DNA from: Sphingomonas sp. EC-HK361
GTDB taxonomy: Bacteria > Pseudomonadota > Alphaproteobacteria > Sphingomonadales > Sphingomonadaceae
Length of the DNA stretch: 64,000 nucleotides
NCBI RefSeq assembly: GCF_902498785.1
Contig: NZ_LR701493.1
Location: forward strand, 481,459 to 545,458
Direction: 5' to 3'
A program made the translations under genes and the position numbers. The notes beneath the pieces were generated by a model, which saw only the letters and a program-made list of their open reading frames with translations, was not told where the DNA came from and ran no database searches. Below, piece after piece: positions 189 through 6,430 of the stretch (position 1 is its first letter; each line of letters begins with the position of its first letter).

Positions 189-465
189 GCAAGGGGCTTC
201 GGCCCTGGCTATGGCGATAAACGGCGGCGTATAATAGACGCAGCGGACCCGGGGGCAGTACCCGGCGGCTCCACCAAAGACCCTCGGCGACGGGGGCCTC
301 TGACGGGGCCGAACCAGGATCGACGTGTGTTGAACGGCGCTGCCTTTTGCTCGGAATGGGACCACCGTGACGGCCCATACACAAGTGCCAACGATAACGA
401 AGCACTCGCGATTGCGGCGTAACTGAGGGCCTCACGGCCTAAGGTTACTCCAAGATAGCGCGGTC
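189..465 (+). ncRNA. ssrA: Two-piece (circularly permuted) tmRNA, tag ANDNEALAIAA
   Basis: tmRNA rescues stalled ribosomes by acting as tRNA-Ala and as a short mRNA. The gene is permuted as in other alphaproteobacteria: the acceptor piece comes first and ends in CCA at 274-276, and the coding piece starts about 305. The T arm is a 5-bp stem (249-253 with 261-265) around the loop GGCAGTA. The acceptor stem is seven pairs between CGGCTCC (266-272) and GGGGCCG (305-311), with discriminator A273. A GGGGC-UUCG-GCCCU hairpin lies near the 5' end. The tag frame runs from the resume codon GCC at 387 to TAA at 420-422. The intervening piece 277-304 is presumably removed. The outer ends (about 189 and 465) are estimates. 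An open frame at 120-422 is simply this RNA read through. Confidence 0.93.
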
Positions 466-577
466 GGACCCCACCGGGCAACAGAAGGGGATTCCAGCGG
501 CCGCCGGGGGGGCCGGGCAACAGAACCCCCCGGACTTCCTCCGAAAAAGCGCGGAGCACCGGGCAACGGAAGCTCCC
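466..577 (+). repeat. Three tandem stem-loops with one shared 14-nt loop
   Basis: Three consecutive hairpins carry nearly the same loop, R-CCGGGCAAC-R-GAA. Stem 1 is CCCC/GGGG (469-472 with 487-490, extendable). Stem 2 is CCGGGGGG/CCCCCCGG (504-511 with 526-533). Stem 3 is GGAGC/GCTCC (553-557 with 572-576). The loops are 473-486, 512-525 and 558-571. The stems differ in sequence while the loops match, which suggests an RNA in which the loop is the functional part. They begin about 45 bases after the tmRNA tag stop, so they could be the 3' part of the tmRNA precursor or a separate small RNA. No clear uridine-run terminator follows. Confidence 0.6.
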
Positions 578-608
578 CACTTCTCTTAAGTCGACGCTCT
601 TGATTTGC

Positions 609-2028: not shown

Positions 2029-4383
<2,355 letters not shown>

Positions 4384-4862: not shown

Positions 4863-5846
4863 TTACAGGTTGAAGCCGCGGACGACGCGGGCGTTGCCGC
4901 CCTCCACCTCGACCAGCGCGACCGGAACGTCGTCCAGCATCGCAAAGGCAAGGCCATCGTCTGTGGCGATCCCGGCCAGCACACGCCCCTGTCGGAGCGC
5001 TCCTGCCTGGTCGGGGGTGAGGGGGAAAGCCGGGATGTCGTCCAGCCCCGCCCTCAATGGCAGAAGTATCTGTTCAAGGGTGCGCGCCTTAGCGTGTTCG
5101 TCCAGTTTGTCCAGCGATATCGCCGAATCGAACCCGAACGCCCCGGCCCTGGTGCGGCGAAGCATGGTGACATGTCCCACCGTGCCGAGCGCCAGCGCGA
5201 TGTCGCGCGCGAGGCTGCGGATATAGGTCCCCTTGGAGACATGCGCGGTAAGGGTGATTTCCTCTAGTTCCTCCCCGGCACGGGGAGGGAGACCAGCCGC
5301 AGGCTGGTGGTGGGGTATCCCGCTATCGATAGGGGGACACCCCTCCGTCGCGCTTTGCGCGCCACCTCCCCTTCCAGGGGAGGAGCAGAGACTATGTATC
5401 GTCACGCTGCGCGTCGCGAGCATGACCTCTTCACCCGCCCGTGCGAGATCATACGCCCGCGCGCCATCTACCTTCAGCGCCGAATAGGCCGGCGGCACCT
5501 GTTCGATCGAACCGGTGAAGCGCGGGAGAACCGCTTCCAGCGCTCGCATAGAGGGCCGAACATCACTCGTCGCGATCACCGCGCCCTCGGCATCCAGCGT
5601 ATCGGTCTGCTCTCCGAAGCGAATGGTGAAATCATAGACCTTGTCGCTATCGAGCATCCGCCCCGCGAGCTTCGTCGCCTCGCCGATCGCGATCGGGAGG
5701 ACACCGGTCGCCAGCGGATCGAGCGTCCCGCCATGGCCGACCTTCCACTTGCCATATCCGCCCTGCCGCAGCGCGCGCTTCACCGCGCTCACGCCCTGCG
5801 TCGAGGCAAGCCCCAGCGGCTTGTCTAGGATGATCCAGCCGTGCAC
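4863..5846 (-). CDS. truB: tRNA pseudouridine-55 synthase TruB with an in-frame repeat insertion
   Basis: Makes pseudouridine 55 in the T loop of tRNAs. The catalytic motif GHGGTLDPLATGVL places the nucleophile at Asp43; the KGTYIRSLARD motif is also present. The chosen GTG start lies five bases after the tdk stop and gives the usual N-terminus VHGWIILDKPLG; the upstream extension is out of frame with tdk and not homologous. Length is 327 residues. About residues 154-193 (SSPGRGGGAQ onward to AAGLPPRAGE) are encoded by a GC-rich palindromic repeat and replace a short loop between two strands just before EITLTAHVSKG. The frame stays open through it, so the enzyme is probably still made. Confidence 0.95.
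   Translation of the reverse strand: MHGWIILDKPLGLASTQGVSAVKRALRQGGYGKWKVGHGGTLDPLATGVLPIAIGEATKLAGRMLDSDKVYDFTIRFGEQTDTLDAEGAVIATSDVRPSMRALEAVLPRFTGSIEQVPPAYSALKVDGARAYDLARAGEEVMLATRSVTIHSLCSSPGRGGGAQSATEGCPPIDSGIPHHQPAAGLPPRAGEELEEITLTAHVSKGTYIRSLARDIALALGTVGHVTMLRRTRAGAFGFDSAISLDKLDEHAKARTLEQILLPLRAGLDDIPAFPLTPDQAGALRQGRVLAGIATDDGLAFAMLDDVPVALVEVEGGNARVVRGFNL
5268..5386. repeat. Palindromic repeat, family C, inside truB
   Basis: The element opens with CCTCCCCGGCACGGGGAGG (5270-5288), contains ACCAGCCGCAGGCTGGT, and closes with CCTCCCCTTCCAGGGGAGG (5365-5383). This is an intergenic-type repeat, related in layout to the 7520-7660 element, but here it is wholly inside coding sequence and read in frame. 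Confidence 0.8.
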
Positions 5847-5851
5847 GCGCG

Positions 5852-6430
5852 TCAGCCGTTCAGTGCTTCGACGAAATGGCGGCGACACAACGCAACGTAG
5901 CGGTCGTTGCCGCCGATCTCGGTCTGCGCGCCCTTGGCGATCGGGCGGCCGGTGCCGTCGACGCGCAGGTTCATCGTCGCCTTGCGCCCGCACTGGCACA
6001 CCGACTTGATCTCGATCAGCGCGTCGCCGAGCGCAAGCAGCCGTGCCGAGCCGGGAAAGAGCTGTCCCTGGAAATCGGTGCGCAGGCCGTAAGCGAGCAC
6101 CGGAATGCCCCCGCTATCGGCGATCGCCGCCAGCTGGTCGACCTGCGCCTCGCTCAGGAACTGCGCCTCGTCCACGAGCACGCACGCAAGCGATGTGTCG
6201 GCATGGCGCGCGGCGACCGCGGCGGCGATATCGGTCGCGGCGTCGAACATCGTCGCCGGCGCCGACAGCCCGATCCGCGACGCGATCGTCCCGCTTTCGA
6301 ACCGGTCGTCGATCGCTGCGGTGAACAGCATCGTCGCCATGCCGCGCTCACGGTAATTGAAATCGGCCTGGAGCAGGTTGGTCGATTTCCCGGCGTTCAT
6401 CGAGGCGTAGTAGAAATAGAGCTTGGCCAT
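5852..6430 (-). CDS. tdk: Thymidine kinase (type II)
   Basis: A 192-residue enzyme that phosphorylates thymidine in pyrimidine salvage, in the cytosol. The P-loop is ASMNAGKST (about residues 9-17), the Walker B/DEAQF motif is LVDEAQF, and zinc-binding cysteines occur in CQCGRKAT and the C-terminal CRRHF. The ATG overlaps the vapC stop by one base (TGATG), so translation is probably coupled; a longer upstream reading is only vapC in another frame. A salvage enzyme at this place in the translation operon is unusual. Confidence 0.95.
   Translation of the reverse strand: MAKLYFYYASMNAGKSTNLLQADFNYRERGMATMLFTAAIDDRFESGTIASRIGLSAPATMFDAATDIAAAVAARHADTSLACVLVDEAQFLSEAQVDQLAAIADSGGIPVLAYGLRTDFQGQLFPGSARLLALGDALIEIKSVCQCGRKATMNLRVDGTGRPIAKGAQTEIGGNDRYVALCRRHFVEALNG

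Follow-up and report, generated by a model that had tools for sequence, protein, structure and literature searches.

Tandem pseudoknots with a shared loop, and a probable displaced remnant, in the coding-RNA tail of a permuted Sphingomonas tmRNA

A permuted ssrA gene and the hairpins of its 3' tail

The window analyzed is a stretch of 64 kb from Sphingomonas sp. EC-HK361, to which all positions refer. It contains, at 150–513, a permuted two-piece ssrA gene, delimited by two programs: the Rfam alphaproteobacterial model alpha_tmRNA (RF01849) matches the plus strand at 150–496 (205.3 bits, E 6.2e-58), and ARAGORN calls a permuted tmRNA at 181–513. A second Rfam model, RF04321, matches at 213–422 (124.4 bits). 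The tag reading frame, ANDNEALAIAA, occupies 387–422 of the plus strand, as given by ARAGORN and read from the letters, and closes with a UAA stop at 420–422. The 5' acceptor strand of the coding piece, GGGGCCG (305–311, plus strand), is paired in the RF01849 alignment with CGGCUCC (266–272) of the acceptor piece; the 5' end of the coding piece would be at this strand, but its exact position, like that of the mature RNA end, we infer.

Downstream of the tag stop, as the first-pass annotation had recognized, a constant loop is presented by three stems of different sequence. Loop 1 (ACCGGGCAACAGAA, 473–486) starts 51 nt past the last base of the stop and is closed by a stem of 7 pairs, 466–472/487–495, with a 2-nt bulge at 491–492; loop 2 (GCCGGGCAACAGAA, 512–525) is closed by 8 pairs, 504–511/526–533. 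The third hairpin, HP-C (553–576, plus strand), has a stem of 5 pairs, 553–557/572–576, and loop ACCGGGCAACGGAA at 558–571, where an A-to-G change at 568 is unique among the listed loops with at least four stem pairs. When CCGGGCAACRGAA is searched with up to 2 mismatches, the only matches in the 64 kb are the three tail loops; about 4 are expected by chance at this tolerance and 70 of 100 shuffled sequences reach 3, but the three observed are all exact and fall within 98 bases.

The same annotation had set the array after the tmRNA, knew of no described element with this loop, and considered that a tmRNA end does not need it. None of this is supported: the hairpins lie 3' of the tag stop within the permuted gene, and the RF01849 consensus itself ends in GGAGgcACCuGGCAACAGAAacCucCACU, which is the same loop on a stem. 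The three hairpins belong to an alphaproteobacterial tmRNA of the permuted two-piece kind, as the 3' tail of its coding RNA; the tail is thus a known RNA in variant form, no new RNA class being involved, and its structure may possibly have been described before (Keiler 2000; Gaudin 2002; Sharkady and Williams 2004; Mao 2009). Gene ends reported at this site should be read with care: in the window the RF01849 match stops short of the second pseudoknot described below, and the ARAGORN call ends inside it.

Two other repeats were observed in the window. Directly past the tail, at about 600–690, lies a palindromic repeat (GAGCGAAGTCGAAGCAC...), with copies in the loci L019/L196 and L088. In truB (4863–5948, minus strand), an apparent in-frame insertion of about 40 residues, at about 5265–5385, comes from a palindromic dispersed repeat; it is flanked by TruB_N and TruB_C_2 matches, and similar DNA is found in L087, L214 and L114.

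Crossing helices in the tail units

The first-pass annotation described plain hairpins. For the first two this proved too simple, as the first four loop bases find a partner in the four bases directly 5' of the stem. PK-A (461–495, plus strand) is composed of helix S1, 461–464 (CGGU) with 473–476 (ACCG); a connecting base L1 at 465; helix S2, which is the first stem listed above; and L3, 477–486 (GGCAACAGAA). In PK-B (498–533, plus strand), S1 pairs 498–501 (CGGC) with 512–515 (GCCG), L1 is 502–503, S2 is the second stem, and L3, 516–525, is again GGCAACAGAA. The stem of PK-B is of a type, indicated as B, found in 34 of 159 tree rows, the window included. The constant 14-nt loop thus consists of a 4-nt S1 strand followed by the 10-nt L3, which is unpaired in the model.

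The S1 partner was sought unit by unit, requiring the full 4 bp and allowing G-U pairs. A full partner is present in 341 of 343 distinct units from copies 1 and 2, while wrong 4-mers used as controls find one in 102, 0, 55 and 99 of 343. Loop base 1 follows the base after the upstream GG (A-T 225 and G-C 89, against G-T 11 and A-C 16), and loop base 4 follows the base before it; loci L001–L117, picked by a pattern in which loop base 4 is fixed as G, are uninformative at this position and were kept out of the mutual-information scan. In that scan, run on 237 distinct units, the top seven places all go to column pairs of the two helices, five from S2 and two from S1.

Five measures were run on 106 gapless units, a set from which one of 107 (L272:165–206) had been left out as a chance match. 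Pairing is found in 87.8% of cells, and 172 cells change on both sides; for S1 the share is 82.8%, units with stems of differing length bringing it down. The covariation score is 0.479; shuffles give 0.164, with none of 500 reaching the observed value, and sliding the structure gives at most 0.202. One measure carries no signal: pairs that show a double change anywhere number 8, and shuffles give 7.9 (378 of 500 reach the observed number). Neither of the two middle S1 pairs (G-C) switches to another standard pair, and the covariation of this helix sits in the other two. S1 helix types include ACCG/CGGU, GCCG/CGGC, ACCU/GGGU and GCCU/GGGC; rarer ones, recognized by eye, are AGCU/GGCU (L319, L324, L332) and ACGU/GCGU (L333). 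Seven two-copy tails (L319, L321, L323, L324, L332, L333, L337) carry AGCU, GCCU or ACGU in place of RCCG in the second loop, with upstream changes that preserve S1 pairing.

The two helices cross and covary, and the connecting segments have the expected proportions: L3 is 10 nt and L1 1–5 nt in 338 of 341 units, S2 being taken as the contiguous inner stem. The S1 partner, together with the covariation of both helices, identifies hairpins 1 and 2, on comparative sequence evidence, as compact H-type pseudoknots. HP-C has no 5' strand complementary to loop bases 1–4. Energy folding gives no clear signal for or against structure (z = 0.17 for 423–600; –1.9 to +0.3 for single units); the case for it is a comparative one. 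For the permuted tmRNA the outcome is a tail structure backed by covariation, which is not drawn in the Rfam model.

The earlier expectation of stems that vary and covary under a constant loop is thus borne out, with one qualification: the invariance of AAC and GAA in the alignment is by construction, because the search expressions used to find the units fix most of these bases. Independent support for their constancy comes from the class sample described below, where the motif is present in all 77 tails counted. The further idea that the loops do the work stands for the ten conserved, unpaired bases and falls for the other four, which form a strand of the pseudoknot.

It had also been suggested that the loops kiss through CCGG, tying the hairpins together. 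CCGG is self-complementary and present in all three loops of the window; yet 46 of the 237 distinct units read RCCU, not RCCG, while local upstream pairing persists: the CCUA, CCUG, AGCU or ACGU loops of relatives match their own upstream strand instead. Moreover, 76 of the 77 class-sample tails have a single loop. An array of kissing loops is, in our judgment, extremely improbable.

Distribution of the unit and number of copies

A covariance model of the unit was searched in 60 Sphingomonadales genomes with a score threshold and strict filters: 44 genomes feature one match each and 16 none. Of the 44 matches, 39 are at the 3' end of a listed ssrA, none is elsewhere, and 5 are in genomes without a listed ssrA place; the position next to ssrA, first noticed in a single window, is thereby the only one found wherever a match could be placed. 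In the window the model finds PK-A (34.9 bits) and HP-C (24.1 bits) and misses PK-B, whose stem is offset. A dispersed, REP-like repeat, which the first pass had named as the finding that would undo its proposal, was considered and rejected, because matches are single in each of the 44 genomes and lie at ssrA ends where placeable; in the window the copies are the three of the tail only, and the stems covary.

A double-loop scan of genome contigs gave at least 117 loci. Among the listed loci without an ARAGORN call, at least 14 show no sign of ssrA (L010, L021, L030, L033, L034, L047, L049, L051, L063, L064, L072, L085, L090, L105); 12 of these listed 14 fall within a stop-free frame of at least 239 codons, while the frames are of 115 codons for L063 and 79 for L033. 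Eight further listed loci were taken as tails cut by the end of the locus: Rfam confirms ssrA in L009, L071, L087 and L095, while L006, L057, L103 and L104, unconfirmed by Rfam, were read as tails from the letters only. L064, from a Rhizobiales metagenome-assembled genome, is among the 12 in long stop-free frames and also has the look of a hairpin: at about 3295–3361 of the minus strand, three 40-nt repeats form a hairpin-like unit with the same GGCAACAGAA stretch and give a weak match to the unit model (20.2 bits, E 0.0085). A tmRNA was looked for nearby and not found; the locus is possibly a look-alike of the unit outside ssrA.

In an evenly drawn sample of the class, RF01849 matches 107 of 115 genomes, 105 of them above the model cut-off. 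Tails were taken from 90 of the 107 (the best 30 plus 60 more, those omitted being mainly the lowest-scoring), and the 77 with an ARAGORN tag were counted, leaving out 13 without a call. The loop is present in all 77: one copy in 76, two in the remaining one. In the genus of Sphingomonas sp. Leaf412, RF01849 matches 244 of 250 genomes, and 70 were examined for tails. Among the 30 most similar to the window, 25 of the 28 correctly placed tails have two loops and 3 have three; chosen for their resemblance to the window, these genomes favor three copies. A further 40 genomes gave 39 tails with a tag, of which 38 have two loops and one has three. Two units are therefore the norm in the Sphingomonas tails examined, and one is the rule in the class sample.

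An exact three-loop pattern, searched in 396 Sphingomonadales genomes, has two matches: a tmRNA tail (G202) and a run of repeats (G329) which, by eye, reads like coding sequence. The pattern is blind to changed loops, as in L198. Three-copy tails being rare in these samples, the window is an uncommon case.

Loop counts are based on 291 of 339 sequences, those with an ARAGORN call. Counts of zero are explained by a wrong tag call in L212 and L218 and by a divergent loop in L333. The same genome can recur across locus sets (e.g. L019/L196, L096/L289); identical sequences were removed from the mutual-information, tree and per-unit S1 sets, and kept in the loop counts, third-copy counts and decay series.

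Extra copies were also observed in other settings. L022, L055 and L077 (Polymorphobacter/Sandarakinorhabdus-like) carry 3–4 copies of the loop, with a spacing of about 70 nt for the additional ones, and apparently represent an independent expansion; L133 and L241, of other lineages, have extra downstream copies in which no S1 strand is evident to the eye. In three genomes a weaker RF01849 match accompanies the main one (72.8 bits in G496, 20.5 in G426, 19.7 in G509); these are possibly duplicate or decayed ssrA genes, or chance.

These distributions bear on whether the array could be a small RNA of its own, or a platform with three identical loops that bind RNA or protein, adjacent to ssrA by chance or as a passenger. 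Near-identical loops on differing stems would suit such a platform, and so would the presence of L3 in all the class-sample tails counted. That the motif is within the RF01849 consensus and is carried by every one of the 77 tag-bearing tails, that model matches cluster at ssrA ends with none elsewhere and five unplaceable, and that loop bases 1–4 are occupied by S1, all weigh against a separate RNA, which we regard as very improbable.

The third hairpin and a model for the tail

Among three-copy tails with at least 3 contiguous stem pairs in the third copy (eight, window included; the weaker L007, L055, L073 and L077 fall outside), the third copy has a 5' S1 partner in none, while copies 1 and 2 both have one in all 8 tails. 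L022, a tail of four copies, has S1 in the third and lacks it in the fourth. When third hairpins were compared with the terminal pseudoknot of a two-copy relative, 5 of 10 pairs share 18–29 nt at 100% identity: 28/28 for L190 and L099, 26/26 for L190 and L296, 29/29 for L100 and L008, 25/25 for L306 and L081, 18/18 for L178 and L004. The shared stretch is the 3' half of the relative's terminal pseudoknot. The five other pairs, including the window versus L019 and L028, gave no separate shared stretch in this comparison; by eye, window positions 555–581 agree with the L045 terminal unit at all but one of 27 bases.

The third unit goes with the type of tail. Among deduplicated tree rows classified by stem, a third copy or relic is present in 14 of 34 of type B, none of 80 of type A and 2 of 45 others; relics (L046, L096, L289, L317, L192, L201, L073) were labeled by hand, L055, L077 and L133, with other extra copies, were labeled as two-copy, and L309 was dropped. 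Similarly, in a set that was not deduplicated, tails were scored for similarity to a third unit downstream of PK-B, against 40 shuffles each. Where the PK-B loop starts with G, 21 of 101 tails exceed every shuffle, although some of the 21 score weakly or have another architecture; where it starts with A, 0 of 75 do. Among relatives, the states of the third unit grade from intact to barely recognizable; its loop conservation is partly by construction, because the copies were picked by loop.

Taken together, the sequences suggest that HP-C is probably a displaced, truncated and decaying remnant of the former terminal pseudoknot. A type-B unit would have come to lie upstream of the older terminal pseudoknot, displacing it; HP-C would be its 3' half, having shed the S1 strand and part of the stem, with decay proceeding at different rates among relatives. 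A single such displacement is insufficient. The tree of the ssrA body has little length and poor resolution, 73 of its 155 inner branches being open, and gain and loss are indistinguishable on it. It requires 9 changes for the 9 rows that carry three or more copies, and types A and B alternate with 25 changes by the stem-based labels used (37 when assigned by loop base 1, which mixed tail types); repeated events or recombination are needed.

The displacement could in principle have come from integration: an element using the ssrA 3' end as attachment site would have carried in the type-B tail, while the old 3' fragment stayed in place beyond it. tmRNA genes are described in the text of PMC11915505 as frequent integration sites. 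The match of third copies to the 3' half of the other tail type fits such an event, as does L198, a three-copy locus that is about 1.25 kb longer than the near-identical type-A locus L045 before the shared downstream sequence resumes. But the extra stretch of L198 holds a long minus-strand frame, presumably phosphatase-like, as named from its motif; one regular expression for a tyrosine-recombinase motif found none in 176 loci (mean 2.6 kb downstream); similar DNA sought in phage records was not found; and only some 46 nt separate the leftover from PK-B, where a far end would have been expected. We think integration quite improbable.

HP-C could also be a working, plain 3'-terminal stem-loop that stops 3' exonucleases or sets processing, PK-B alone making a poor end. 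By eye, the stem outlives the loop in three distinct relics (L201, L317 and L096), and stems kept in this way could mean that HP-C is still functional. Third-copy stems, in addition, vary and still pair (GGAGC/GCTCC, GAGGC/GCCTC, GGGGC/GCCCC), and in the window the change at 568 would permit an extra CCG/CGG helix within the loop. Against a working hairpin, 20 of the 34 type-B rows, by the labels used, have neither copy nor relic, and a consensus scan of the plus strand at 1–1000 revealed no terminator-like site. A functional HP-C seems rather unlikely to us.

The reading we favor, and hold with considerable confidence, is therefore that of a coding-RNA tail with two working pseudoknots followed by the displaced, truncated former terminal one. 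PK-A and PK-B, each with a 4-bp S1, a short L1, an S2 of about 5–9 pairs and an unpaired 10-nt L3 facing S1, stand where other alphaproteobacteria have one terminal pseudoknot. By analogy with pk2–pk4 of one-piece tmRNA, they would assist folding and maturation of the RNA and form the arc away from the tRNA-like end; they would also protect the coding piece as a cap at its free 3' end. Contacts of L3 with the minor groove of S1 are usual in such pseudoknots, and the ten conserved bases might make such contacts here or bind a partner.

A broader proposal sees the alphaproteobacterial tmRNA tail as a modular array, in which a cassette with the near-invariant 10-nt GGCAACAGAA is repeatedly added, swapped and clipped; its GGCAACAGAA strand would be a docking site for a ribosome or SmpB partner, and tail length would tune ribosome seating or survival against exonucleases. 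Taken as a whole, we rate this proposal as unlikely. On the reading favored above, the tail evolves by the copying and clipping of one pseudoknot cassette, which is of use mainly to tmRNA specialists: close relatives with either tail type are a natural experiment, in which the roles of pseudoknots in folding, stability and tagging may be compared.

Several known systems offer points of reference. In E. coli, according to the accounts in PMC4236655 (also PMC3968760), interchanging pk2–pk4 costs little tagging, their disruption affects tagging and maturation differentially, and they are assigned to overall folding. Lengths are given for pieces of other two-piece tmRNAs: the 3' piece of the S. 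meliloti tmRNA is given as 204 nt in PMC2245857, and chain A of Caulobacter crescentus, given in PMC1168896 as 213 nt with the stop at 121–123, therefore has a tail of about 90 nt in the mature RNA.

Among models, tmRNA_permuted (RF04321), as presented in PMC11915505, recognizes the gene of the window. RF01849 is matched over its full length (model 1–355); it contains a single unit, with no pairs drawn in the tail by its structure line, whereas the window has two pseudoknots and a third hairpin, and its match leaves PK-B and HP-C outside. Pk2 and pk3 of Caulobacter chain A (Burks et al. 2005) resemble the present pseudoknots in being small and in following the tag within the coding chain; the parts of PMC1168896 on which this comparison of descriptions draws make no mention of copy-number variation in alphaproteobacteria. 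The cyanobacterial one-chain tmRNA described there, in which one pseudoknot is replaced by two smaller tandem ones (pk4a/pk4b), provides a parallel in another lineage and for another pseudoknot; the Sphingomonas copies differ from that pair in sharing an identical L3, and the third copies counted are without S1.
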